Shown: piece by piece, positions 5,131 through 51,423 of the stretch
How positions within the stretch are numbered: the stretch's first letter is position 1
How the letters are laid out: each line of letters begins with the position of its first letter
NCBI GenBank assembly: GCA_015067255.1
Contig: SVMS01000009.1
Location: 1-55,352, forward strand
DNA: 55,352 nt
Direction: 5' to 3'
Source of the DNA: Oscillospiraceae bacterium
GTDB lineage: Bacteria; Bacillota; Clostridia; Oscillospirales; SIG519
Position numbers and translations under genes: made by a program
The notes under the pieces: model-generated
What the model was told of the DNA's origin: nothing
The model's input: only the letters and a program-made list of their open reading frames with translations
The model's database searches: none

Positions 5131-5373
5131 TTATTTAATCTCTTGCTCTAAATTTTTGAAAATTTCAGCGTCAAAAAATTCCGTTATTGTAATATCAAGC
5201 CCATCGCATAGCTTCTTAATAGTGGAAATACCGGGGTTTTGACTTTGATTATATAATATTGATTTTACAGTTGTATACGGTACGCCCGAAAGAGTTGCCA
5301 ATTTGCAGAAATTCAAATCCTTTTTATAGCATAATTCTTCAAATCTTGCTTTAACAGCTTGCGTAATATTCAC
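5131..5373 (-). CDS. XRE-family helix-turn-helix regulator
   Basis: An 80-residue protein that is essentially one Cro/C1-type HTH domain (LATLSGVPYTTVKSIL as the recognition core), ending in FKNLEQEIK. The start is taken as GTG at 5373 because AGGAG lies 8 bases upstream and the protein then begins MNITQAVKARFEELC, aligning with the XRE at 46731 (MNVKDVVAERFKTLC). The two are clear paralogues (both contain ISTIKK/ITTIKK followed by CDGL and end in LEQEIK). It lies downstream of a 54-residue gene on the same strand. Probably a small transcriptional repressor. Confidence 0.85.
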   Translation of the reverse strand: MNITQAVKARFEELCYKKDLNFCKLATLSGVPYTTVKSILYNQSQNPGISTIKKLCDGLDITITEFFDAEIFKNLEQEIK

Positions 5374-5445
5374 GAGTATCACTCCTAACGAAAATATTTT
5401 ATAATTTTCATTAGGAATTTTTGGACTATATATTGTGCTATCGTA

Positions 5446-5610
5446 TTATATATAGTCCTTTTTCAACAGTTTTGCAACCGTTTCGACAAATTCTTTTGCA
5501 GAAAGCTCTAAGCCTGCTAAATTAAGAGCTTTTTGTATTTCTTTTTCTGCTTCTTCTACAGAAATGTTTTCTTTTTTTGCCAACTGCTTTAAAATGTTAT
5601 CATAATTCAT
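5446..5610 (-). CDS. Small hypothetical helical protein, 54 residues
   Basis: ATG at 5610 follows a GGTGAG ribosome-binding site and the frame ends with TAA at 5446. The protein begins MNYDNILKQLAKKENISVEE and continues with a charged, predicted-helical sequence ending KLLKKDYI. It has no Cys, membrane segment or known motif. It precedes the XRE gene (start 5373) on the same strand with a 72-bp gap, so the two may form a unit. I do not recognise the family. Confidence 0.6.
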   Translation of the reverse strand: MNYDNILKQLAKKENISVEEAEKEIQKALNLAGLELSAKEFVETVAKLLKKDYI

Positions 5611-5714
5611 TTTCTCACCGCCTTTTTTATGATTATACTATATATAGTCTATCAAAAAAGGTCGGATTTTGTCGACTTACATTATTTATTTGAAAAATTT
5701 TTACAGCCTTTTTT

Positions 5715-5799
5715 ATGAATTGCAATCTTGCGATTGCATGAATTGAAAGTGAATACTTTCATGAATTGCCTACGGCATGAATTGTGCCTTCGGCACATT
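5715..5799 (+). repeat. Repeat family A, half block
   Basis: The word ATGAATTG appears four times, separated by hairpins GCAATC..GATTGC, GAAAGT GAAT ACTTTC, GCC TAC GGC and TGTGCC TTC GGCACA. The mirror-image half lies at 6107-6219 beyond the DUF3343 gene, so the two halves form an inverted pair around that gene. Confidence 0.85.
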
Positions 5800-5832
5800 A
5801 AAAAGCAAGAACGTTTTAGTTCTTGTTTTTTT
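5800..5832. terminator. Terminator-like hairpin, GCAAGAAC family
   Basis: AAGCAAGAAC pairs with GTTCTTGTTT across a GTTTTA loop, followed by T-rich sequence. The same stem recurs at 21925, 45046, 46291 and 47042. No plus-strand gene ends just upstream, so here it may be part of the repeat cassette rather than a working gene terminator. Confidence 0.6.
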
Positions 5833-7615: not shown

Positions 7616-7699
7616 TTGAACTTAATTATACTTTTTGTTTTATCAAAAGATACAAAAAAGTATCGCACCAAAAATGCGTAATATTAGTTAGAACATCAT

Positions 7700-7877
7700 T
7701 TAATGAATTGCTTTGCAATTCAATTCATGGAGCAAAGCGAGAATTCATGGCATCAGCCAATTCATGATGCAAAGCATCAATTCATTTATTTTATGAATTG
7801 CAATCTTGCGATTGCATGAATTGAAAGTAAAGACTTTCATGAATTACCTACGGCATGAATTGTGCCGTTGGCACATT
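7700..7877 (+). repeat. Repeat family A, complete block
   Basis: The first half reads TGAATTG then AATTCATGG words around GCTTTGC, AGCAAAGCGAG, CATCAGCC and GATGCAAAGCATC. The second half has ATGAATTG words around GCAATC..GATTGC, GAAAGT AAAG ACTTTC, CC TAC GG and TGTGCC GTT GGCACA. It fills most of the gap between the aminotransferase and toxin genes. Just before it (7650-7680) is half of the hairpin found complete at 8573-8607. No gene is visible. Confidence 0.85.
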
Positions 7878-7883
7878 AAAATA

Positions 7884-7921: not shown

Positions 7922-8200
7922 TTACCTGAATAAATCAGAATGGCTACCTACACGATAAAGCATTAAAACCAATACATCATCAATCACTTCATACACAAGC
8001 AACCAATCGGGTTCTATATGACATTCCCGACAGCCTTTATAGTTACCGCTTAAATCGTGGTCACGATATTTTTCTTCCAATGGCTCACCGTTTGCCAGCT
8101 TATCAATAACGGTAAACAGTTTCTCAATATCCTTGCCTTGCTTTTTGGCAAGCTTCAAATCCTTTTTGAATTGGGTAGTAAACCGAATCTCGTACTTCAT
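7922..8200 (-). CDS. yafQ: YafQ/RelE-family mRNA interferase toxin
   Basis: A 92-residue ribosome-dependent endoribonuclease toxin. It carries the YafQ catalytic set H48, H61, D65 and H87 (E. coli YafQ H50, H63, D67, H87), in HDLSGNYKGCRECHIEPDWLLVY and the C-terminal RVGSHSDLF; the first is quoted across residues 48-70. The gene overlaps the antitoxin gene by 4 bp, the usual translational coupling. The toxin should cut mRNA in the ribosomal A site when the antitoxin is degraded. It sits between repeat blocks in an accessory stretch, so recent acquisition is plausible. Confidence 0.9.
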   Translation of the reverse strand: MKYEIRFTTQFKKDLKLAKKQGKDIEKLFTVIDKLANGEPLEEKYRDHDLSGNYKGCRECHIEPDWLLVYEVIDDVLVLMLYRVGSHSDLFR

Positions 8201-8469
8201 TCTTCCAACGCCGCCCTTAAATCAGACATAGAGGAAAAGCCTGTCGCGTTTTTGTCATACGCCAAAGCTCTTCCCTCTGCGATAGCGGCGGCAGTGGTTT
8301 CGTTGGGGATATTCAGCTTGACCTCAAAAGGAATACCGTTCTCACGGATCGCCTGTCTTAAAAAGATATTAACAGCAGTGGTCATATTAAGTCCCAAAGC
8401 ATCAAAAATCTTTTCAGCCTGCATTTTCACTTCTTTATCGGTACGGATATTCAAGTTTGTAGACTCCAT
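8197..8469 (-). CDS. RelB/DinJ-family antitoxin
   Basis: A 90-residue antitoxin with an N-terminal ribbon-helix-helix domain: STNLNIRTDKEVKMQAEKIF is the strand and first helix, and LNMTTAVNIFLRQAI the second. The C-terminal part (GRALAYDKNATGFSSMSDLR) should wrap the toxin. The ATG follows GGAGGTG by 5 bases. It precedes and overlaps the toxin gene. An inverted repeat over the promoter is the expected autoregulatory operator. Confidence 0.9.
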   Translation of the reverse strand: MESTNLNIRTDKEVKMQAEKIFDALGLNMTTAVNIFLRQAIRENGIPFEVKLNIPNETTAAAIAEGRALAYDKNATGFSSMSDLRAALEE

Positions 8470-13730: not shown

Positions 13731-13784
13731 CGTAACACTTCCTTATTTATTGATTGTAATGTGCTTATTTAGCTCTTTTGCGTT

Positions 13785-13980
13785 ACGCAGTAACGCATTA
13801 CAAATGTGCTTTAGCACAATTCATGCCATTGGCAATTCATGAAAGTATTTACTTTCAATTCATGCAATCGCAAGATTGCAATTCATAAAAATAAATGAAT
13901 TGATGCTTTGCATCATGAATTGGTTTTCACCATGAATTCTCGCTTCGCTCCGTGAATTGAATTACGCAGTAATTCATTAA
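13785..13980 (-). repeat. Repeat family A, complete block, inverted
   Basis: This is the reverse-complement arrangement of the 7700-7877 and 46331-46505 blocks. Its hairpin TGTGCT TT AGCACA replaces the TGTGCC/GGCACA stem of other copies, a paired change. Other slots are GCCATTGGC, GAAAGT ATTT ACTTTC, GCAATC GCAA GATTGC and GATGCTTTGCATC. It fills the gap between darA and comM; no gene or clear T-tailed terminator is seen there. Confidence 0.85.
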
Positions 13981-13990
13981 AAACGCTGAT

Positions 13991-22173: not shown

Positions 22174-22186
22174 GTGAATTCTCGCT

Positions 22187-22311
22187 TCGCTCCATGAATT
22201 GAATTGCTCTGCAATTCATTACAACAATGTGCCGAAGTCACAATTCATGCCGCTGGCAATTCATGAAAGCTTTTGCTTTCAATTCATGCAATCTCAAGAT
22301 TGCAATTCATA
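22187..22311 (-). repeat. Repeat family A, block with a covarying stem
   Basis: AATTCATG words separate hairpins. One stem is GAAAGC TTTT GCTTTC, where other copies have GAAAGT..ACTTTC, so both sides changed together. No gene occurs between the terminator at 21925 and the XRE gene at 22351. Confidence 0.85.
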
Positions 22312-22320
22312 TAGTGCCGA

Positions 22321-22352
22321 AAAGAAAGCCGTGAAAAATCACGGCTTTCTTT
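22321..22352 (-). terminator. Terminator of the XRE gene at 22351
   Basis: AAAGAAAGCCGTGA pairs with TCACGGCTTTCTTT around AAAA, starting at the XRE stop codon. T-runs lie on both strands. Confidence 0.85.
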
Positions 22353-22668
22353 ATCTTTGTTCTTTTGTCAAACGGCGGATATGACCGATAATAAGCATCA
22401 TATCATCATCGTTAAGCTTTCTCAATTCATCAATTGCGCTTTGAAGCAAAGCAGGGTTTTCAATGGAAGAATCAAAAAACTGACTGGGAGTAATTTCAAA
22501 ATAGTTACATATTTCAAGAAACTCTGCCATAGGAGGCAAGCATTTACCTGAAGATATGTTGTAGATATAACCTCTGCTATGACCGAGGTCATAACTCATT
22601 TGATATTCAGATACACCCTTTTTAAGACGCAACTGTGTGATTCTGTTTCTGATAAAATTTCTGTCCAT
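22351..22668 (-). CDS. XRE-family regulator, divergent from a broken SLOG gene
   Basis: A 105-residue protein with an N-terminal HTH (KKGVSEYQMSYDLGHSRGYI) and a C-terminal helical tail (LLQSAIDELRKLNDDDMMLI) like those of small phage-type or mobile-element repressors. It is divergent from the interrupted SLOG gene at 22862, with a 190-bp AT-rich intergenic region between them that probably contains both promoters. Confidence 0.85.
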   Translation of the reverse strand: MDRNFIRNRITQLRLKKGVSEYQMSYDLGHSRGYIYNISSGKCLPPMAEFLEICNYFEITPSQFFDSSIENPALLQSAIDELRKLNDDDMMLIIGHIRRLTKEQR

Positions 22669-22861: not shown

Positions 22862-23326
22862 ATGTTTAATTTTTTTACAGTTGCGTTTTTTGGACACAGG
22901 CACATAAACAATCTGATTAAAGTGGAAAATTTACTTGAAGAGAAAATAGGAAAGCTTATTAAAGAAAAGGAATATATCTAATTTCTTGTGGGAAGAAACG
23001 GGGATTTTGACCAGTTTGCCTCTTCGTCTGTGCTGCGAGCGCAAAAAAGATACGGGGACATCAACAGCTCACTTGTGTTAGTTCTTCCGTATCTGACGGC
23101 GGAATATAGCAATAATAAAGAAGCTTTTCATAGATATTATACTGATGTGGAAATAGCTTGCGCAAGGGTACATCCGAAAGCGGCAATACAAGCACGTAAT
23201 CGGGAAATGGTTGACAGGGCAGATTTGATTATCTGTTACATTGAGAAAAAAGGCGGCGGAGCCTCAAAAACAATAGAATACGCCAAAAAGCAAGGGAAAG
23301 AAATAATAAATTTAGCAAAAGATTGA
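22862..23326 (+). pseudogene. SLOG-family (DUF1273-like) gene interrupted by an in-frame TAA
   Basis: ATG at 22862 opens a frame reading FFTVAFFGHRHINN and on to KEYI, then TAA at 22979-22981. The same frame continues at once with FLVGRNGDFDQFASSSVLRA and runs to 23326. Joined, the two parts give a complete 154-codon DUF1273/SLOG-like protein: the GHR motif at the N terminus and VGRNGDFDQ belong to one Rossmann-like fold. A single G-to-T change (GAA to TAA) would explain it. The downstream GTG at 22988 lacks a good ribosome-binding site. It is either a recent pseudogene or, less likely, a readthrough gene. The SLOG superfamily is proposed to sense nucleotide-derived ligands. Confidence 0.8.
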
Positions 23327-23342
23327 TTTGCAATTCATTATA

Positions 23343-23517
23343 TTAAGTATCCTTCTCATACTTTTTCAAAAGCTTTAGTTTTTCTTCAAGCAAAAGCTTT
23401 TTATCCATACTCACATATATACATTCCTTACACATTCCCGAAATATCTATGCTTATTTTTTCAAGACTATACTTCCCATTGTTCTGATACACGCAAAAAA
23501 CGATTTTCACATTCCAT
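23343..23517 (-). pseudogene. Cys-rich mini-protein gene with a +1 frameshift
   Basis: This is a second copy of the 57-residue Cys-rich gene at 45331-45504. The start context GAGGTG then ATG at 23517 is intact and encodes MECEN, but the run at 23495-23500 has six A (six T on the coding strand) where the intact copy has five. That shifts the frame after the first CxxC region. The remaining frame still reads LEKISIDISGMCKECIYVSM. An alternative start upstream restores that frame but loses two of the first cysteines. It is divergent from the XRE gene at 23714. Confidence 0.75.
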
Positions 23518-23713: not shown

Positions 23714-23983
23714 ATGGGAAAGGATGTTGATTATAAAAACCGAGACCGTTTTATCCAGCTCGGTATTGCCATATCAACGCTTCGCAGAATCAGAGGCTTA
23801 TCACAGGAGAAGCTTGCAGAAAAGGCAAATATAAGCCGTTCGTTGCTGAGTAATATAGAGGCCCCGAATATGGCATACGGCTTTTCACTGAATGTGTTAT
23901 ATAATATTGCCGATGCTTTAGATATTGCACCGGAAAAATTGATTACCGCATCGGTTTTTTCTGATGAAATTCTTAATAAGTAA
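23714..23983 (+). CDS. XRE-family regulator beside the Cys-rich mini-gene
   Basis: An 89-residue protein with a classic HTH (RIRGLSQEKLAEKANISRSL, then LSNIEAP). ATG at 23714 has AGAGGA 8 bases upstream; a GTG at 23693 is possible but lacks a site. It is divergent from the frameshifted mini-gene, as the XRE at 45639 is from the intact mini-gene. The two XRE proteins resemble each other (SQEKLAEKA versus TQEYFAELI, and ILYNIADALDIAPEKL versus LFKMAKVLNVSPAKL in the C-terminal helix). Confidence 0.85.
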   Translation: MGKDVDYKNRDRFIQLGIAISTLRRIRGLSQEKLAEKANISRSLLSNIEAPNMAYGFSLNVLYNIADALDIAPEKLITASVFSDEILNK

Positions 23984-25637: not shown

Positions 25638-28298
25638 TTAATCTAAAATCAAGTCTTTAATGATACACAAATCAAAAATATCTATTACTCTGTTGTTGTC
25701 TATATCGAAGCTTATAACGACACTGTCTGATGTCCAAAGCGCATTCAACAAATAATTTCTCAGCTGTACGGCATCAAGCACGTTTAGCTCTCCGTCATCA
25801 TTTGCATCTCCGAAAAGGTGCGTTAGCAGACCGTTTTGGCTCAATATAGCCACTTCTTCATTATTTGCCGCAAAGCTATAAACTCGAATTTCGTCCAAGG
25901 CGCCGTCAAAGCGATAGCTGGACGCGGGACCTCTGGGGTCAATCATAGCTCCAAAAGAAGCGGGGTACTTTTGACTGTCTGCAAGTAATTTTTGCAAATT
26001 ACGGTTTTCATGCACCGCAATACCGTCAAAATACAGCTTAATGGAATTAGCTTTTTTATTTACTACAAGAGCAACGTGATGCCAGCTTTGGTCTGTCTCT
26101 CCCGAAACGGCGGGGATAAGCTTAACACACTGCAAAAAGTTTTGAGTACTTCCTACAGAATTTATATAGCTGTAATCAAGCCAAAGCTCTGCTTCTTCTG
26201 TTACAGTGCCTTTCTTTACAGAAACACGAATACCCTCATCATTCAGATATTTATTGTTAAACAATATTCCGCCTGCACACTCTTTTGTGTTTTGGAAAAA
26301 CATAGATAAGGTATATTCGTCAAGATTATCAATAAAATCCATTTGGTCATAGGCGGCGCCTAAGGGCATAAGAGCTGATTGAGCATTGAATTTTGCCGCC
26401 TTACCAAGCTTTAAGTCTGTATTATCTGTGCTAATCTGAACAGGCTTGCTTTTAGTCGAAACAAGAGAATTGTTGTTGCCCGATATATCCATACCCATTT
26501 GAGAGCCTATTTCAAAATTATAGTAGGCCTTGAGGTCTTGGTCTTTAAAGCGGATTTCCTCTTGTGTTTCTCTTACTGTCTGTGTACCGTAGGAATAGGT
26601 TGTAAGAACCGTTATACTCTGCGGACGTAGGCAAATTTCATTGTTTTTGGCAGGCTCGTAATTTACACCGGGGTAAATTCTGTCTGTTTTGCCGTCCTGT
26701 ACGTAATGCTGATAAAAGGTTTTTTCGGGCAAGCCCTGCAATTTTACCGCTGCAGGAGTTGAAGCATCATTTACAAGAAGCACTGTTATATCGTTGTCCT
26801 TTTTAACACTTACACAGTGAACCCTTTGTCCGTCTGAGTCACTTAAACCGCTTACGCTTGTTTCTACAACGTCTGAGCCGCTTTTAATGTACTTTGTGTA
26901 AAGAGATGTGGGATAATAGTTTGTATCGTCGGGGGTAAATTCTCTGTACTGGTTTTTTCCCACCTCTAACATAGCATAATACTTGTGATATACAAGATTA
27001 TATACCCAGTTTCCAAAGCCCTTAACTCCGTTGTTAAGTCCCATAATTATTGCCTCTGCATTGTGAAGCTGAAGCTTATAGTTCTTCTGTGTGGTTTCAT
27101 CTTTTCCGCCAAAGGCAAAGGTACCAAGCTCTCCCATAACGACAATTCTCTCCTTGCCGTCTGAGGTTGCCTGTGTAACGGCAGGCTTAATGAGTCTTGG
27201 CAGCTGAAATTCCGAAAGAGTTCCGTGAGTTACGCCATCAGGTGTATTTTTAAGAGAATCCATTCTTGAAAAATAATCGTGAATAGCGATAATATCCATA
27301 TTATCTCCGCACTTTGAAATCATACGGCTTACCTGATCATCTACCCAGCCCTTTTCATTGTTCCAGAAGGTTGAGCCGTCATAGGCTTGAATAAGCACCT
27401 TATCTCTTATTCCCAAACGGCGAAAATGTCCGCCGAGAGAATTGTATACACTTGTAAGCACGTTTTCGTAGTCAATAAGATGCTCAGGCTCATTCCAGAA
27501 GGATATTCCCTTTACACAGTTATAGCCCTTTTCCACTTTTAAGTGATACATAATTGCCGCTATTGACTCTGTATATTCTTCTAAATCGGTAACATACAGC
27601 CTGTCACGGTCTGACATACTGTAATCAGAGCCGTCAGGCTTTTTCTGAGCAAGCCAGTTTTTGCCGTCGGGACAGAAAGCTCCGCCGCCGCGGTCCCAGT
27701 TTGCAAGCACTACGTATTTGCCCGTTTTCTCAAAATGGTCTAAGATTTTATACATAGCTTCCATATAGAGAAAATTGTTCTTTCTTACCTCGGGGTGATT
27801 TTCTTCATAGCCGTCAGAAAAAACAAAGCCGTTTTCAAAATCTGTATTCTGAGAGTCGTTGTTGTCATTTACAGGCTCCCACATACTGATAGAAACACTC
27901 ATTCTGACATATTTGAAATCCATAAAGTCAACAAGCTGAAAATAGTTGTCCCACTCTTTTTTTGCTTCACTTTCAGACAAATGGGTTGTATAGGGAATGT
28001 GCTGACTGTGTATTCCTATCCATTCTTCGCCTGTTTCAAGATTGATGGGAATAGTCGAGCAAAAATCAAAATTGACACCGGGGCCTATTATATTTGAATT
28101 TATAACTTGATTTAAATCAATTTCAATACTTCCTGTCAAAGAGGTGTCGGGATTATATTCAACGGGAGTTACATCACCGTAATCAACGGTATTTTCAGCT
28201 AAAACGCCTTCATCAGAAAGTGTCGCACTTACTCCTCCCATAAACATAAAAAATAAAAGTCCTATAGCTGTTATTTTTATAAAAGCTTTATTTTTCAT
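25638..28298 (-). CDS. Secreted clan GH-A glycoside hydrolase with LamG-like module and dockerin
   Basis: An 886-residue secreted enzyme. A signal peptide covers residues 1-26 (ITAIGLLFFMFMGGVSA). A TIM-barrel glycosidase follows, with acid/base E270 in ISFWNEPE and nucleophile E390 in VVMGELGTFAF. A concanavalin/LamG-like module lies at about 600-820. The C terminus is a type I dockerin with two calcium loops (DANDDGELNVLD and DIDNNRVIDIFD). The dockerin implies docking to a cohesin scaffoldin. I cannot name the exact GH family or substrate. The catalytic part is a close paralogue of the upstream gene (15 bp away), so the pair arose by duplication. Confidence 0.9.
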   Translation of the reverse strand: MKNKAFIKITAIGLLFFMFMGGVSATLSDEGVLAENTVDYGDVTPVEYNPDTSLTGSIEIDLNQVINSNIIGPGVNFDFCSTIPINLETGEEWIGIHSQHIPYTTHLSESEAKKEWDNYFQLVDFMDFKYVRMSVSISMWEPVNDNNDSQNTDFENGFVFSDGYEENHPEVRKNNFLYMEAMYKILDHFEKTGKYVVLANWDRGGGAFCPDGKNWLAQKKPDGSDYSMSDRDRLYVTDLEEYTESIAAIMYHLKVEKGYNCVKGISFWNEPEHLIDYENVLTSVYNSLGGHFRRLGIRDKVLIQAYDGSTFWNNEKGWVDDQVSRMISKCGDNMDIIAIHDYFSRMDSLKNTPDGVTHGTLSEFQLPRLIKPAVTQATSDGKERIVVMGELGTFAFGGKDETTQKNYKLQLHNAEAIIMGLNNGVKGFGNWVYNLVYHKYYAMLEVGKNQYREFTPDDTNYYPTSLYTKYIKSGSDVVETSVSGLSDSDGQRVHCVSVKKDNDITVLLVNDASTPAAVKLQGLPEKTFYQHYVQDGKTDRIYPGVNYEPAKNNEICLRPQSITVLTTYSYGTQTVRETQEEIRFKDQDLKAYYNFEIGSQMGMDISGNNNSLVSTKSKPVQISTDNTDLKLGKAAKFNAQSALMPLGAAYDQMDFIDNLDEYTLSMFFQNTKECAGGILFNNKYLNDEGIRVSVKKGTVTEEAELWLDYSYINSVGSTQNFLQCVKLIPAVSGETDQSWHHVALVVNKKANSIKLYFDGIAVHENRNLQKLLADSQKYPASFGAMIDPRGPASSYRFDGALDEIRVYSFAANNEEVAILSQNGLLTHLFGDANDDGELNVLDAVQLRNYLLNALWTSDSVVISFDIDNNRVIDIFDLCIIKDLILD

Positions 28299-28313
28299 AT
28301 AACAACACCTAAA

Positions 28314-30191
28314 TTATCTTACTGTCTGTGTGCCGTAGGAATAAGTTGTCAAAACCGTTATACTTTGCGGGCGTAGAAAAATTTCATTATTTTTAGCAGG
28401 CTCGTAATTTATACCGGGGTAAATTCTGTCTGTCTTGCCGTTATATACATAATGATGATAAAAGGTTTTTGAAGGCAAGCCCTGCAATTTCACCGATGCC
28501 GCCCTGGAGGCATCGTTTACAAGAAGCACTGTTACATCGTCGCCCTTTTTAACAGTTACACAGTGAACTCTCTGTCCGTTTGAATCCTTCAAGCCGCTTA
28601 CGCTTGTTTTTACAACATCTGAGCCGCTTTTAATGTACTTTGTGTAAAGAGAGGTGGGGTAATAGTTTATATCGTCGGGAGAAAATTCTCTTTCATTAAA
28701 ACGATTTTTTCCCACATCTAACATAGCATAATACTTGTGATATACAAGATTATATATCCAGTTTCCGAAAGCTTTAACTCCATTGTTAAGTCCCGAAATT
28801 ATTGCCTCTGCATTGTGAAGCTGAAGCTTATAGTTTTTATCTCTTGTCTCTACGTTTCCGCCGAAAGCAAAGGTACCCAGCTCTCCCATAACGACAATTC
28901 TGTCCTTGCCGTCTGCTTTTGCCTGTGTAACGGCAGGATTAATGAGTCTTGGCAGCTGAAAATCCGAAAGAGTTCCGTGTGTTATTCCGTCGGGCGTATT
29001 TTTGAGATAATCCATTCGGGAAAAATAGTCGTGAAGCGAGATAATATCCATATTATCTCCGCATTTTGAAATCAGACGGCTTACCTGGTCATCTACCCAG
29101 CCCTTTTCATTGTTCCAGAAGGTTGCGCCGTCGAAAGCTTGAATAAGCACCTTATCTCTTATTCCCAAACGGCGAAGCTGTGCGCCGAGAGAATTGTATA
29201 CGCTTGCCAATACGTTTTCATAATCAATAAGTCCCTCAGGCTCATTCCAGAAGGATATTCCCTTTACACAGTTATATCCCTTTTCTACTTTTAAGTGATA
29301 CATAATTGCCGCCATTGACTCTGTATACTCTTCCAAATCGGTAACATACAGCCTGTCGCGGTCCGAAAGGCCGTAATCTGAGCCGTCAGGCTTTTTAAGA
29401 GAAAGCCAGTTTTGACCGTCGGGACAGTATTCTCCGCCGCCTCGGTCCCAGTTTGCAAGAACTACGTATTTGCCTGTTTTCTCAAAATGGTCTAAAATCT
29501 TATACATAGCTTCCATATAGAGAAAATTGTTCTTGCTTACCTCGGGATGCTTTTTTTCATAACCGGGAGAAAAAACAAAGCCGTTTTTAAAATCTGTATT
29601 ATGGGGATCATTATTGTCATTCACAGGCTCCCATTGGCTTATGGAAACACTCATTCTGACATATTTGAAATCCATAAAGTCAATAAGCTTGAAATAGTTA
29701 TCCCATTCTTTTTTAGCTTCTTTTTCGGTTAATTTGAAAGTATAAGGAATGTGCTGACTTCTTACATTTTCCCACTCTGCGCCTGTTTCAAGATTGACAG
29801 GCACCATACAGGAAAAGTCAAAGTTTACACCGGGGCCTATTATATTTGAATTTATAATTTGATTCAAATTAATTTGTATACTTCCCGTCAATGATGTTGA
29901 GGGGTTATATGCAACAGGCTTTACATCACCGTAATCAACACTTGGCTGAGTTGGGGCAGTGCTTGAAGCTGCGCCTGAAGAGGTATCCGACACTTTATTA
30001 TCCGAGGCGCTGTCCTGAGATGCATCAGAAGAGCTTTGCTGTCCCGATGCAGCCGAAGAAATAACCTCGCTGTTTTCTGCGCTGTTATCCAATATATTTA
30101 TATCAGATGATGAATTGTTCATATTTTTTCCTCCCGTACAACCTGTTAAAGTTATTAGTATCATTATAATTGCAAAAACCTTGATTCTCAT
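28314..30191 (-). CDS. Lipoprotein clan GH-A glycoside hydrolase, paralogue without dockerin
   Basis: A 625-residue protein. The N terminus is a lipoprotein signal with lipobox LTGC (C18), followed by a Ser/Asp-rich linker of about 70 residues and the same catalytic domain as the downstream gene (VVMGELGTFAFGG and ISFWNEPEG keep both acidic residues). It ends at TTYSYGTQTVR, exactly where its paralogue continues into the LamG and dockerin modules. ATG at 30191 has GAGGTG upstream. One enzyme is thus anchored to the membrane and the other dockerin-tethered or released, probably acting on the same polysaccharide. Confidence 0.9.
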   Translation of the reverse strand: MRIKVFAIIMILITLTGCTGGKNMNNSSSDINILDNSAENSEVISSAASGQQSSSDASQDSASDNKVSDTSSGAASSTAPTQPSVDYGDVKPVAYNPSTSLTGSIQINLNQIINSNIIGPGVNFDFSCMVPVNLETGAEWENVRSQHIPYTFKLTEKEAKKEWDNYFKLIDFMDFKYVRMSVSISQWEPVNDNNDPHNTDFKNGFVFSPGYEKKHPEVSKNNFLYMEAMYKILDHFEKTGKYVVLANWDRGGGEYCPDGQNWLSLKKPDGSDYGLSDRDRLYVTDLEEYTESMAAIMYHLKVEKGYNCVKGISFWNEPEGLIDYENVLASVYNSLGAQLRRLGIRDKVLIQAFDGATFWNNEKGWVDDQVSRLISKCGDNMDIISLHDYFSRMDYLKNTPDGITHGTLSDFQLPRLINPAVTQAKADGKDRIVVMGELGTFAFGGNVETRDKNYKLQLHNAEAIISGLNNGVKAFGNWIYNLVYHKYYAMLDVGKNRFNEREFSPDDINYYPTSLYTKYIKSGSDVVKTSVSGLKDSNGQRVHCVTVKKGDDVTVLLVNDASRAASVKLQGLPSKTFYHHYVYNGKTDRIYPGINYEPAKNNEIFLRPQSITVLTTYSYGTQTVR

Positions 30192-30304
30192 AGAACACCT
30201 CATAATACTTGTTTCAAAATAAATATATCATATTAACCTATACATTTCAATACAATCGCAAAAAAGCTGAAAAAAAGACAAATAAATATGTATTTTAGTA
30301 GAAA

Positions 30305-30604: not shown

Positions 30605-30967
30605 TTATATCATTTTAACCTTAACAGGCTTTTCTAATTTCTTTGCATACTCTATCATTGACTTTGTGCCCTTGCTCTTTCCGTCCCAAAAACAAATGAC
30701 ATAATCACAGCACTCCGCCATTTCCTTGTTTCTTATAGGGCCTGCTGCTCTGCCGTACTCTTTCCAGTTGGCAGGATGCAATTCTATTTCATAGCCGTTT
30801 TCCTTGGCATACCTCTCCCCCAATAAATCAGCGCCCTTACAGCCGCCCGAAACAAAAACAATAGTATTCTCTTTTTTTATCTCACTGATGCAAAAATCTA
30901 TATACTCCTTAGCCAGCTCGTAATCACTAAAATCTCTGCACCCTGCAACAACAATTTTTTTAATCAT
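30605..30967 (-). CDS. DUF2493/YspA-like SLOG-family protein
   Basis: A 120-residue Rossmann-like protein: IVVAGCRDF at the first strand, VFVSGGCKGADLLGERYA as the ligand-binding loop, and GPIRNKEMAE (78-87) as the SLOG signature. ATG at 30967 is preceded by GGTGAAA; an earlier start at 30997 lacks a site. SLOG proteins are thought to bind nucleotide-derived ligands in signalling or conflict systems. It is divergent from the XRE gene at 31123, the same arrangement as the broken SLOG gene and XRE at 22.3-23.3 kb. Confidence 0.85.
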   Translation of the reverse strand: MIKKIVVAGCRDFSDYELAKEYIDFCISEIKKENTIVFVSGGCKGADLLGERYAKENGYEIELHPANWKEYGRAAGPIRNKEMAECCDYVICFWDGKSKGTKSMIEYAKKLEKPVKVKMI

Positions 30968-31019
30968 AATTTTCACCTTTGTCTTTCGATATGTCAACTT
31001 ATATTAACTCAATATTTAA

Positions 31020-31065: not shown

Positions 31066-31122
31066 ATGTCAAGAGAAATTATTAATATAATTCTTGTAAA
31101 GAATATATTAAGGGTGATTTTC

Positions 31123-31368
31123 TTGAAAATTCGAAAATCAGAATACGGAAACAGCAATCTTGTAGGCAAAAACATCGAGCGTTTGCGAAAGGAAAAAGGT
31201 ATAAAGCAGAAAGACTTTATCTCTAAAATGCAAATTTTGGGCTGTGATATAAACCCTACAAGCTATTCCAAGCTTGAAGGACAGGTGCGTATTGCCACCG
31301 ACAAGGAAATTTATATTATTTCTAAAATTCTAAACGTATCTGTTGACTCCCTGTTTGAAGAAAAATAA
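31123..31368 (+). CDS. XRE-family regulator divergent from the SLOG gene
   Basis: An 81-residue HTH protein (IERLRKEKGIKQKDFISKMQ, then SKLEGQVRIATDKEIYIISK). TTG at 31123 is preferred because AGGGTG lies about 7 bases upstream and the protein then starts near the usual HTH position; an ATG 57 bases earlier overlaps the operator. The two inverted repeats upstream are its likely binding sites. Confidence 0.8.
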   Translation: MKIRKSEYGNSNLVGKNIERLRKEKGIKQKDFISKMQILGCDINPTSYSKLEGQVRIATDKEIYIISKILNVSVDSLFEEK

Positions 31369-45109: not shown

Positions 45110-45290
45110 AGCTAAATTATTCCGCTTTGCTTCATAGCTAAATAACTCCTTAGGAGTAGCTAAATAAAATTCGCCTTAAGCTGACCGCAGGTCAATTTAG
45201 CTACGAAGTAATTTAGCTGAGTTTACTCAATTTAGCTCGCGTAAGTGAATTTAGCTAAATTTTAAACTTTGTTTAAAGCTACATTTTCTC
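45110..45290 (+). repeat. Repeat family B, copy 2
   Basis: Three AGCTAAAT words in the first half and four ATTTAGCT in the second. Slots: CCGCTTTGCTTC, AACTCCTTAGGAGT, GACC GCA GGTC, ACGAAGT, GAGT TT ACTC and CGCGTAAGTG. The slot GAGTTTACTC holds GTGCGTTAGCAC in copy 3 and its complement in copy 1. It is preceded by TGTGCCGAAGGCACA, a family A slot. Confidence 0.85.
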
Positions 45291-45330
45291 GTTACGCTCC
45301 ATGAATTGAATTGCTGCGCAATTCATTATA

Positions 45331-45504
45331 TCAACCCTCTTCTTCATATTTTTTCAAAAGCTTTAGTTTTTCTTCAAGCAAAATCTTTTTATCCATACTA
45401 ACATATATACATTCCTTGCACATTCCCGAAATATCTATACTTATTTTTTCAAGTTCGCACTTCCCCTTGTTTTGATAAATACAAAAACAGTTTTCACAAT
45501 TCAT
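45331..45504 (-). CDS. Cys-rich mini-protein, 57 residues (intact copy)
   Basis: ATG at 45504 lies 5 bases after GGTG and the frame closes with TGA at 45331. The product starts MNCENCFCIYQNKGKCELEK and later has ISGMCKECIYVSM, giving cysteines C3, C6, C8, C16, C29 and C32: two CxxC pairs suited to binding zinc or an Fe-S cluster. A Lys/Glu/Leu-rich helix (LLEEKLKLLKKYEEEG) follows. A frameshifted homologue lies at 23343-23517 and a remnant at 46604-46650, each beside an XRE gene. Function unknown; an accessory or anti-repressor partner is one possibility. Confidence 0.75.
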   Translation of the reverse strand: MNCENCFCIYQNKGKCELEKISIDISGMCKECIYVSMDKKILLEEKLKLLKKYEEEG

Positions 45505-45638
45505 AACATCACCTTAAAATAAATATTTTTTCATTTATTATAAACTATTATTAACTAAAAGTAAACAATAATGCAATTGTATATTATAATAATTATTTCG
45601 TTTTTTCGGTAAAATATAATTAGAAGGAAGGCGAAATA

Positions 45639-45869
45639 ATGAAAACAGAATTTTCAGATAAATATATTACTCTCGGACTAAAGATTGCATATTATCGAAA
45701 AAAGGCAGGCTATACACAGGAATATTTTGCTGAGCTTATTGAAAAAAGTGTCAGCTTCGTGGGACAGGTGGAAGGCACCGGAACAGTTCGAGGGGTCTCC
45801 CTTGAAACTCTATTCAAAATGGCAAAAGTCTTAAATGTTTCTCCCGCTAAGCTGTTAGAAGATGATTAA
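45639..45869 (+). CDS. XRE-family regulator divergent from the Cys-rich mini-gene
   Basis: A 76-residue protein that is one HTH domain (KAGYTQEYFAELIEKSVSFV) with a short tail (SPAKLLEDD). AGAAGGAAGG precedes ATG. The mini-gene 135 bp away is transcribed in the opposite direction from a shared AT-rich control region. A second XRE gene follows on the same strand. Confidence 0.88.
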   Translation: MKTEFSDKYITLGLKIAYYRKKAGYTQEYFAELIEKSVSFVGQVEGTGTVRGVSLETLFKMAKVLNVSPAKLLEDD

Positions 45870-46290: not shown

Positions 46291-46329
46291 AGAAAAAAGC
46301 AAGAACGAAATTTTTCGTTCTTGCTTTTT
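46291..46329 (+). terminator. Terminator after the second XRE gene
   Basis: AAAAAAGCAAGAACGAAA pairs with TTTCGTTCTTGCTTTTT, a long stem with T-run right after the stop. It leads directly into a family A repeat. Confidence 0.9.
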
Positions 46330-46330
46330 A

Positions 46331-46505
46331 ATGAATTGCGAAGCAATTTAATTCATGGAGTGAAGCGAGAATTCATGGCGCAAGCCAATTCATGATGCAA
46401 AGCATCAATTCATTTTTTAATGAATTGCAATCTACGATTGCATGAATTGAAAGTAAATACTTTCATGAATTACCTACGGCATGAACTGTGCCCAAGAGCA
46501 CATTA
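46331..46505 (+). repeat. Repeat family A, complete block
   Basis: Same orientation and slot order as 7700-7877, with slot differences: GCGAAGC for GCTTTGC, CGCAAGC for CATCAGC, GAAAGT AAAT ACTTTC, and TGTGC..GCACA with a longer loop. No gene occurs between 46290 and the XRE at 46731 except the mini-gene remnant. Confidence 0.85.
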
Positions 46506-46603
46506 TTACAAATATAGTATATCGCAAAATTCCGACTGTTTCAATAGGTCATTTTCACATTTTTCCGACACTTTTTGATATATAACACCACATTTTTCTT
46601 GTG

Positions 46604-46650
46604 TTGCTGCGCAATTCATACTATCACCTTAAAATAAATATTTTTTAAAT
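46604..46650 (-). pseudogene. Remnant of a third Cys-rich mini-gene (leader only)
   Basis: TGCTGCGCAATTCAT is followed at once by ACTATCACCTTAAAATAAAT. In the intact locus the first sequence lies just past the stop (45312-45325) and the second is the ribosome-binding leader (45505 on). The coding part between the two ATTCAT copies is missing, as if deleted by recombination between the short direct repeats. An XRE gene lies on the far side, as in the other two loci. Confidence 0.6.
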
Positions 46651-46678
46651 TATAACATTTTATTATTTATTACGCAAG

Positions 46679-46690
46679 TGCGTATACGCA
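46679..46690. promoter_or_regulatory. Perfect palindrome upstream of an XRE gene
   Basis: TGCGTATACGCA is a 12-bp perfect inverted repeat, with ACGCAA words on either side, about 40 bp before the start of the XRE gene at 46731. It is a candidate operator. Confidence 0.5.
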
Positions 46691-46730
46691 ACAGTGTAAA
46701 ATTACATACAATATTTTTGAGGTGAAAATA

Positions 46731-46973
46731 ATGAACGTCAAAGATGTTGTTGCTGAAAGATTTAAAACCTTATGTGAGGAAAGAAACATTAAAATAAACG
46801 AGCTTGCAAATATTTCGGGAGTTACTCCCTCAACGGCATACAGTATGATGGATAAGGAAAGACGGGATATATCAATTACCACAATTAAAAAGTTTTGCGA
46901 CGGATTGGAAATAACCTTAGGTGAGTTCTTCTCTACCCCTGAATTCGACAGTTTAGAGCAAGAGATCAAGTAA
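46731..46973 (+). CDS. XRE-family regulator, paralogue of the one at 5131
   Basis: An 80-residue HTH protein (INELANISGVTPSTAYSMMD) ending FDSLEQEIK. ATG at 46731 follows GAGGTG by 6 bases. It aligns end to end with the XRE at 5131-5373 (LCDGLDITITEFF versus FCDGLEITLGEFF). The mini-gene remnant lies upstream in the divergent position. Confidence 0.88.
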   Translation: MNVKDVVAERFKTLCEERNIKINELANISGVTPSTAYSMMDKERRDISITTIKKFCDGLEITLGEFFSTPEFDSLEQEIK

Positions 46974-49466: not shown

Positions 49467-49690
49467 TAAAGCTAAATTATTCCGCTTTGCTTCATAGCTA
49501 AATAACTCCTTCGGAGTAGCTAAATAAAATTCGCCTTATAGCTGACCGCAGGTCAATTTAGCTACAAAGTAATTTAGCGTGCGTTAGCACATTTAGCTCG
49601 CGTAAGCGAATTTAGCTAAATTTTAAACTTTGTTTAAAGCTGCATTTTCTTGCTTTGCTCCATGAATTGAATTGCTGTGCAATTCATTAC
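49467..49690 (+). repeat. Repeat family B, copy 3, with a family A fragment
   Basis: AGCTAAAT/ATTTAGCT words with slots AACTCCTTCGGAGT, GACC GCA GGTC, CAAAGT, GTGC GTTA GCAC and CGCG TAAG CG. From 49660 it passes into a family A fragment (TGAATTGAATTGCTGTGCAA). A half of the GCAAGAAC hairpin lies at 49438-49453. No gene occurs between 49391 and 49686. Confidence 0.85.
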
Positions 49691-51423
49691 TTTGTAGGTT
49701 CTTTAGGAGTTACAAAAAGTGTTTTATTATTTGTATATATAACCATTCCGGCTTTTGCGCCTGAGGGCTTTTTGACGTGCTTTACAAGGGCAAAGTCTAC
49801 AGGCACGTTTGTTCCCTTGCTTGCTTTAGAGTAAAATGCTGCAAGCTGTGCAGCCTCGAAAATTGCCTGCTCGCTTACTTTGTCCTCTTTTGCTTTTACT
49901 ATAACGTGGCTTCCTGCAAAATCCTTGACGTGAAGCCATATATCCGTTTTGGAAGCCCATTTGAGAGTAAGCCAATCGTTTTGGAAATTGTTTTTGCCGA
50001 CGAAAATCTCAAAGCCGTCAGAGCTTGTAAAGTGCATCGGGCTCATAACCTCTTTTTCCTTGCGCTTGTTTATGGTCGATGCTCTTTTTATATAGCCGCT
50101 CTGATAAAGCTCCTGACGTATCTGACCTATCTCCTTTTCAGTTTCTACCTTGGTGAGAGAATCAAGTACGCTGTCTAAATATTTTAGCTCCTCTATGCCC
50201 TTTTCTATCTCACTTTTTAAATACTCTGCGGAATTTAATCTCTTTTTATACTCTTTGTAATACTTTTGAGCGTTCTGAGCAGGTGAAAAAGAGGGGTTTA
50301 GCTCAATAGAAATCAGCTCACCGTCGCCGAAAATATTTTCAAGCTTTACTGAGTGCGCCTTTTGGAGCCTATATAAATTTGCGCTTAGCAAATCGCCGTA
50401 GAGCTTGAATTTTTCACATTCTGCGCTCTGTTCAAGCTCGAGCTTCTGGCGCTGAGTTTTTTTGATAATTCTGTCCTGAGCATTTGATAAAATCTTTAAA
50501 ATATCACTTGTTTTCTGATGAATACGGCTTATTTTTTCACGGGTTTCGTAAAAGCTGTCAAGCAGTGCAGAAAAGCTTTCTGCGCTATCGGAAAGCATAG
50601 AAGCGCCGTATTGATGAATATTGGTAAAGGAAAATTCAAAGGGCTTTTTATCGGGCAAGGAATGAAGAATTACAGGGGTATAGCTTTTGTTTTTCACTTT
50701 TTCGCTAAGACGGCTGAGGAAAAAGGCAAGCTTATCCCTTTGCGCCTCCGTCAAATCGGAAACAAGGGTATCTGTAGCACCACAGCAAAGGAAAGACAGC
50801 TCTCTTGCAATAAGGGGCGAAAAGCCCTGAAAGCTTTCGAGCAAAGCCTTATCTGTTCTCATATCGGGAAGAGAGTCAACAATCCCTTTAAAATCTTCAT
50901 TTTGAGCGATATCAAGCTTATTTTGTGCAGGGGGAAGAGAATAAAGCATACCGGGTAAAACTTGCCTTTGGGCAGAAACAGTCAAATCTACACGCTTGAT
51001 GCTGTCAATAATTTTATTGTTGGCATCTGTAAAAATAATATTGCTGTGCCTTCCCATAATCTCAATATGAAGCTTTTTAAGAGTTCTTTCCCCGAAATCG
51101 TCAAAGCCTTCAAAAACAAGTACGGCAATACGCTCGAAGCCCTGTTGCTGAATGTCGCAAAGACGTGCGCCTGCAAGATGCTTTCTCAGAAGCATACAAA
51201 ACATAGGGGGAGAAGCGGGATTTTCAAAGGAAAGGTCAGTAAAATGAAGTCTTGGCGCATTTGCGCTTGCCGATAAAAGAAGCCTCTTGCTCTCGCCGCC
51301 CGAGCGTAAAAGCAAAACAAGACAATCGCTTTGGGGTTGATACACCTTATCAACCTTTGCGCCGATAGAAATTGATTTAATTTCATTTAATAAGGCGTTT
51401 AAAAAAATGCCGTCAAAAGCCAC
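49687..51423 (-). CDS. rqcH: NFACT protein RqcH (ribosome quality control, Fbp/FbpA family)
   Basis: A 578-residue NFACT protein that adds C-terminal alanine tails to peptides stalled on large ribosomal subunits. GTG at 51423 is chosen because GGGGAG lies 8 bases upstream and the protein then starts VAFDGIFLNALLNEI, as homologues do. The N domain has SPPMFCMLLRKHLAG, the middle is a long coiled coil, and the C-terminal NFACT-R holds WLHVKDFAGSHVIVKAKED. The residue pair at 97-98 is Glu-Arg, where Bacillus RqcH has Asp-Arg. It lies downstream of rny beyond a repeat block. Confidence 0.92.
   Translation of the reverse strand: MAFDGIFLNALLNEIKSISIGAKVDKVYQPQSDCLVLLLRSGGESKRLLLSASANAPRLHFTDLSFENPASPPMFCMLLRKHLAGARLCDIQQQGFERIAVLVFEGFDDFGERTLKKLHIEIMGRHSNIIFTDANNKIIDSIKRVDLTVSAQRQVLPGMLYSLPPAQNKLDIAQNEDFKGIVDSLPDMRTDKALLESFQGFSPLIARELSFLCCGATDTLVSDLTEAQRDKLAFFLSRLSEKVKNKSYTPVILHSLPDKKPFEFSFTNIHQYGASMLSDSAESFSALLDSFYETREKISRIHQKTSDILKILSNAQDRIIKKTQRQKLELEQSAECEKFKLYGDLLSANLYRLQKAHSVKLENIFGDGELISIELNPSFSPAQNAQKYYKEYKKRLNSAEYLKSEIEKGIEELKYLDSVLDSLTKVETEKEIGQIRQELYQSGYIKRASTINKRKEKEVMSPMHFTSSDGFEIFVGKNNFQNDWLTLKWASKTDIWLHVKDFAGSHVIVKAKEDKVSEQAIFEAAQLAAFYSKASKGTNVPVDFALVKHVKKPSGAKAGMVIYTNNKTLFVTPKEPTK

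Follow-up and report, generated by a model that had tools for sequence, protein, structure and literature searches.

Introduction

Type II toxin-antitoxin systems of the HigA, MqsA and CopG/ParD types combine a small cargo gene with a neighbouring gene for a small DNA-binding repressor, and partner exchange is typical of toxin-antitoxin systems. The controller (C) proteins of restriction-modification systems and the capH-type repressors are small XRE proteins whose operator lies on the promoter of a divergent or adjacent gene. Here we describe a locus at which a small XRE gene is divergent from the gene for a Cys-rich mini-protein, the family to which that protein belongs, its association with divergent regulators, the layout of their operators and promoters, and the decay of the cargo gene beside retained repressors. 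Literature searches on divergent XRE/Cys-rich modules, on the function of DUF1540, on SLOG-XRE pairs and on orphan riboswitches of this group returned no description of this module.

The window (the whole stretch of DNA that was analysed, 55,352 nucleotides) is the oriC region (dnaA, dnaN, recF, gyrB, gyrA) of a 1.84-Mb assembly from Clostridia. A sequence-only reading had described three loci in it, at 23.3, 45.3 and 46.6 kb, each with a mini-gene facing an XRE gene; the layout and coordinates that it gave for the 45.3-kb pair are correct. The features of this locus are:

45331–45504 (−): gene of the Cys-rich mini-protein (57 aa), an intact copy running from the ATG at 45504 to a stop at 45331, recognised from the ORF and from relatives in other genera
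45509–45514 (−): mini-gene ribosome-binding site AGGTGA; AGGTG also precedes orthologues and paralogues
45537–45565 (−): mini-gene promoter predicted by a scan of the gap (−35 TTTACT, 17 bp, −10 TATAAT)
45505–45638: divergent gap, AT-rich, with both promoters inside (sequence and promoter scan)
45639–45869 (+): XRE/Cro-type repressor, 76 aa, HTH only (Pfam HTH_3, E=7.3e-11)

The mini-protein family

The 57-residue protein belongs to an unnamed family with the pattern C-x4-C-x7-C-x12-C, usually with a CxxC partner; C3, C8, C16, G27 and C29 are invariant across 34 members, and C32 is present in most. The two CxxC pairs noted in the sequence-only reading (C3/C6 and C29/C32) are literally there, but C6 is not conserved. 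Matches in other genera (E=1e-15 to 1e-17), together with the divergence of the 45.3-kb copy from one elsewhere in the genome on contig C30 (dN 0.07 versus dS 0.33, dN/dS ~0.2), identify a real family and not a chance ORF. Among 59 genomes from the same order six have relatives, and in a larger set 22 of 394 do; 17 loci lie in named assemblies, all of uncultured Clostridia, Oscillospiraceae or Ruminococcaceae, and the sample source, where given, is mostly ruminant or deer gut.

DUF1540 (PF07561) also comprises short Cys-rich proteins of Clostridia. The window protein scores 10.7 bits against it, under the Pfam gathering threshold of 22.1 bits; 15 of 25 members match it weakly (best E=1.1e-4), and when the profiles are compared the alignment covers the N-terminal 25 residues (P=8e-4, with a probability of only 24%). 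No known toxin family was matched in Pfam, NCBIfam or PADLOC, nothing meaningful was returned by an NCBIfam search with the family, and the PDB profile search gave a single irrelevant match (E=0.1). Weak matches to phrog_4279 were obtained with 15 members; its own matches in genomes are mostly frames of ~360–410 codons at profile positions 46–110, and we took these as cross-matching of a DnaJ-like zinc domain and set the candidate aside. Since the AlphaFold model of the mini-protein is weak (pLDDT 70, pTM 0.38), the argument for zinc binding is drawn from the cysteine pattern, which suggests that the protein may bind the metal.

Association with divergent regulators

At 46 separate loci the longest opposite-strand ORF starting 30–260 bp upstream of the mini-gene was taken and the surrounding ORFs were read; for two of them, L044 and L035, the regulator was identified on inspection and not by this rule. 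A small DNA-binding protein is encoded divergently at 37 of the 46 (XRE/Cro at 24, ribbon-helix-helix, RHH, at 13), starting ~40–250 bp upstream; some loci share a regulator type and are not fully independent, yet there are many distinct XRE and RHH types. HTH_3 is found in 20 of 21 XRE proteins tested, and RHH/Arc/CopG-type Pfam families in several of the 13 RHH proteins, the remaining RHH calls being made by eye from their similarity to these. The regulators at 45.3, 23.3 and 46.6 kb all score above the Pfam HTH cut-off and are thus XRE/Cro members. Under the identical rule, 30 DUF1540 loci from the order, read by eye, have no divergent XRE or RHH gene (0/30) and a transcription factor of any kind at two (one SpoIIID, one sigma factor); the Fisher p for mini-gene against DUF1540 loci is ~1e-11, as computed with a control count of 1/30, the final count being 0/30.

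The association that the sequence-only reading proposed to look for thus exists outside this genome, and its picture of a recurring module with repeated gain and loss is borne out across species, as is the occurrence beside different regulators. Its choice of XRE as the partner was too narrow: XRE proteins account for 24 of the 46 loci, and RHH proteins and a leader RNA also serve. Five of the remaining nine loci carry a structured leader RNA of ~160 nt.

Close relatives of the 46.6-kb XRE protein, which we call class A, are paired with a mini-gene at L025 (where it is broken), L026, L029, L133, L134, L136 and L138. Because the loci were collected by way of the mini-gene, regulators that lack one are under-counted in this set; in a sample of 30 class A XRE orthologues the mini-gene is adjacent in only two, plus the 46.6-kb remnant, and the orthologues usually guard other divergent genes. 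Partners are swapped both ways, XRE genes occurring with other divergent genes and mini-genes with other regulators. Even one chromosomal neighbourhood can differ in this respect, that of secA having an RHH pair in L145 and a leader RNA before the mini-gene in L147.

Several other regulatory pairs are present in the window. An XRE gene at 22351–22668 (−) is divergent from a SLOG/YpsA-like gene (22862–23326, +; by eye) with an in-frame stop near 22980, an arrangement often seen among class A orthologues elsewhere, and a second pair of this kind consists of 30605–30997 (−) and 31066–31368 (+), the SLOG-like gene being of the DUF2493 type by eye. The XRE genes at 46722–46973 (+) and 5131–5382 (−) are of similar type; the latter lies downstream of a same-strand ORF of ~53 codons (about 5449–5609) and has no facing mini-gene. 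Judged by eye from its translation, 7922–8469 (−) resembles a toxin-antitoxin operon of the ordinary RelB/DinJ–YafQ type; its same-strand layout contrasts with the divergent mini-gene pairs.

Operators and promoters

In each of three regulator classes represented by several loci, a class-specific palindromic block overlaps the −35 box of the mini-gene, and the −10 box follows after 17 bp. The class A block, TGCGTATACGCACTTGCGTA, is nearly identical in eight loci, with TTGCGT 17 bp before TATAAT; the four class B loci have the operator TACTTCGnGTACTTGATATTT and a −35 of TTGATA, and the four RHH loci have ATAACCAnnnnTGGTTGCA and TTGCAT/A. Both elements are retained at the 46.6-kb locus:

46649–46677 (−): promoter retained at the remnant, −10 TATAAT (46649–46654), 17 bp from the −35 TTGCGT inside the operator (sequence comparison and gap scan)
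46670–46690: predicted operator TTACGCAAGTGCGTATACGCA for the divergent XRE protein, covering part of the mini-gene promoter at its −35; conserved at this position in seven other mini-gene loci

The class A operator recurs with at most 3 mismatches in 21 in 17 of the 30 XRE orthologues, ~60–97 bp before the XRE ATG (shuffled sequences never gave fewer than 6), and most of these 17 guard other divergent genes (for SLOG-like proteins, membrane proteins and others) with the operator at the same place. Since it recurs before orthologues that face other genes, the class A XRE protein seems to repress whichever gene lies divergent from it, the mini-gene being one of several cargoes. Because the operator overlaps the mini-gene −35 in three classes, we infer that repression by the divergent regulator is the best-supported mechanism. 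For the intact locus comparison does not define the operator, as no orthologue of the 45.3-kb XRE gene and its gap was found.

Mini-gene decay and regulator retention

Three mini-genes are recognisable in the genome, at 45.3 kb (intact), at 23.3 kb (frameshifted) and on contig C30 (interrupted by a TAG); beyond these there are a C-terminal scrap on contig C6 and the 46.6-kb remnant. The states given in the sequence-only reading, one intact copy, one frameshifted and one deleted, agree with ours. The other two copies in the window comprise:

23343–23517 (−): frameshifted mini-gene, a T-run close to the start being one T longer; Cys16 also lost
23714–23983 (+): XRE repressor facing it, intact (Pfam HTH_19, E=1.6e-10)
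46506–46619 (−): mini-gene remnant, 37 codons, rest of the ORF gone; ribosome-binding site and start ATGAATTG kept
46722–46973 (+): intact gene for the 83-aa XRE repressor of the 46.6-kb locus (Pfam HTH_26, E=2.9e-10)

At 46.6 kb the ribosome-binding site, start, promoter and operator of the mini-gene are thus all retained, and ATGAATTGCGCAGCAA at the start is the sequence found immediately 3' of the stop of the 45.3-kb copy; the loss would fit a deletion between two ATGAATTG repeats. The gene divergent from the C30 copy encodes a regulator of the RHH (Arc) type and is not an XRE gene. Regulators are intact at all four loci of this genome and mini-genes are broken at three, and at L025 the XRE gene is likewise intact beside a broken mini-gene. 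This pattern, in a small sample, is consistent with a cargo that carries a cost or can be dispensed with, and with a repressor that has to be kept. Recoding of TAG was considered for the two copies that contain this stop and was rejected, the TAGs standing at non-equivalent residues (Lys and Tyr).

The sequence common to the four copies starts only ~25–30 bp before the ATG, and comprises the ORF and ribosome-binding site, not the promoter and operator. Intergenic palindrome arrays (ATGAATTGC...GCAATTCAT) are found at 5711–5803, 7699–7881, 13771–13982, 22175–22323, 45282–45331, 46327–46507 and 49540–49692, and mini-gene copies stop exactly at ATATAATGAATTGC; these boundaries are possibly recombination points. 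A repeat of another kind is seen at 25638–30203 (−), where two tandem related large secreted proteins are encoded (DNA identity 86–89% over 300-nt stretches), the 886-aa member ending, by eye, in a dockerin-like segment.

Leader RNA

A ~160-nt RNA lies directly upstream of the mini-gene at five loci (L015, L018, L141, L146 and L147, the last being the weakest match) and ends in an intrinsic terminator ahead of the mini-gene ribosome-binding site; a sixth locus, L143, is cut by a contig end. Of 197 genomes from the order, 70 have matches to its covariance model, before many unrelated genes (e.g. L150–L179), with as many as 12 in a single genome and, once, a tandem triple. Its architecture is a promoter, a covarying closing stem, a long-range helix and a terminator, then the gene. 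Across 30 copies, 98% of cells are paired in the closing stem, the long-range helix (pseudoknot or alternative) and the terminator, and compensatory changes occur at 19 of 34 pairs, against 4–6 in slid versions. No family in Rfam 15 matches it, and it may be a new class of cis-regulatory RNA.

Mobility and defence

The sequence-only reading had suggested a small mobile or selfish system, or a defence-type switch. Occurrence is patchy, the loci are not syntenic (BLASTP detects no common flanking genes among the class A loci compared) and several copies can be present in one genome, all of which support mobility, if only indirectly. Among the ORFs around the loci, however, no integrase, transposase or other known mobile element carrying the mini-gene was found, except for a REP-type transposase beside L015, and several different queries of phage records, viral contigs and plasmids did not detect the family, a partial match of 35 residues at 34% identity being the only exception. 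A selfish character is plausible. Nothing found speaks for defence: among PADLOC models there is none for the mini-protein, the regulators are matched there only as generic XRE-type proteins, and no defence island is seen, the flanks being chromosomal genes and, in the window, housekeeping genes near oriC.

Proposed mechanism and alternatives

We propose that these loci are probably repressor-cargo pairs, in which interchangeable repressors silence an exchangeable mini-gene. A small self-contained XRE or RHH protein would use a palindrome between the divergent genes as its operator; with the operator on the mini-gene −35, it would hold the mini-gene off and probably limit itself too, until a signal ended repression. 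The cargo would be a protein of 50–60 residues with 4–5 conserved cysteines, likely one zinc site and a C-terminal helix, its gene and ribosome-binding site having come to lie next to repressors of several unrelated kinds and, at some loci, behind a structured leader RNA that includes a terminator. Our best guess is that it is a small effector, costly when unrepressed. The mini-gene thus looks like silenced cargo moving between off-switches in gut Clostridia. A stronger version, in which the Cys4 family is a portable payload, a silenced effector under XRE, RHH or pseudoknotted leader-RNA off-switches that forms an uncatalogued divergent analogue of toxin-antitoxin systems, we consider unlikely.

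The rival that we take most seriously, while giving it less than an even chance, is an ordinary small accessory protein for metal or stress, distantly DUF1540-like and under local repressors, with gain and loss reflecting neutral turnover; the weak DUF1540 matches and the aligned N-terminal residues agree with it, but the window protein falls under the Pfam cut-off and DUF1540 genes lack this type of neighbourhood. That the pairs are selfish and toxin-antitoxin-like, the mini-protein being toxic and the divergent repressor a transcriptional antitoxin, is suggested by the decay of mini-genes beside intact repressors, by the exchange of partners and by the XRE and RHH folds, which are typical of antitoxins (one RHH protein matches CopG_antitoxin). 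We nevertheless judge it rather improbable: the genes do not form one operon, the regulators are bare HTH or RHH proteins with no neutralising extension, no toxin family is matched, and the leader-RNA loci have no protein partner.

A very small protein that mostly adjoins a regulator might also be its co-regulator or anti-repressor, in a SinI/SinR-like feedback loop; pairing with two unrelated DNA-binding folds and an RNA makes a single conserved protein-protein contact unlikely, and we give this reading little weight. Least probable by far are leftovers of a phage lysogeny switch, with a CI-type repressor divergent from an early gene: an XRE gene divergent from a small gene does resemble the CI/Cro layout, but phage and viral-contig searches yielded only the one partial match and the flanking genes are chromosomal.

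Comparison with known systems

Under the repressor-cargo reading the regulators are swappable around a tiny cargo gene, with three unrelated kinds of switch on one mini-gene family, and the operator sits on the −35 box in every repressor class open to comparison. Should the mini-protein prove to be an effector, it would represent a class of repressed small proteins unnamed in present family libraries. DUF1540 proteins share the similar cysteine and I.I pattern of the N-terminal 25 residues, and differ in the C-terminal half (C-x2-C and a helix in the mini-protein) and in having no divergent regulator. The restriction-modification controllers and capH-type repressors differ in their company, no restriction, methylase or CBASS genes being seen adjoining the mini-gene pair. 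Type II toxin-antitoxin systems are organised as one operon, whereas the mini-gene pair is divergent at those 37 loci, with no toxin domain in the mini-protein and no neutralisation domain in its regulator; what the two have in common are cargo families that occur with several repressor folds, and a cargo that decays while the repressor stays.
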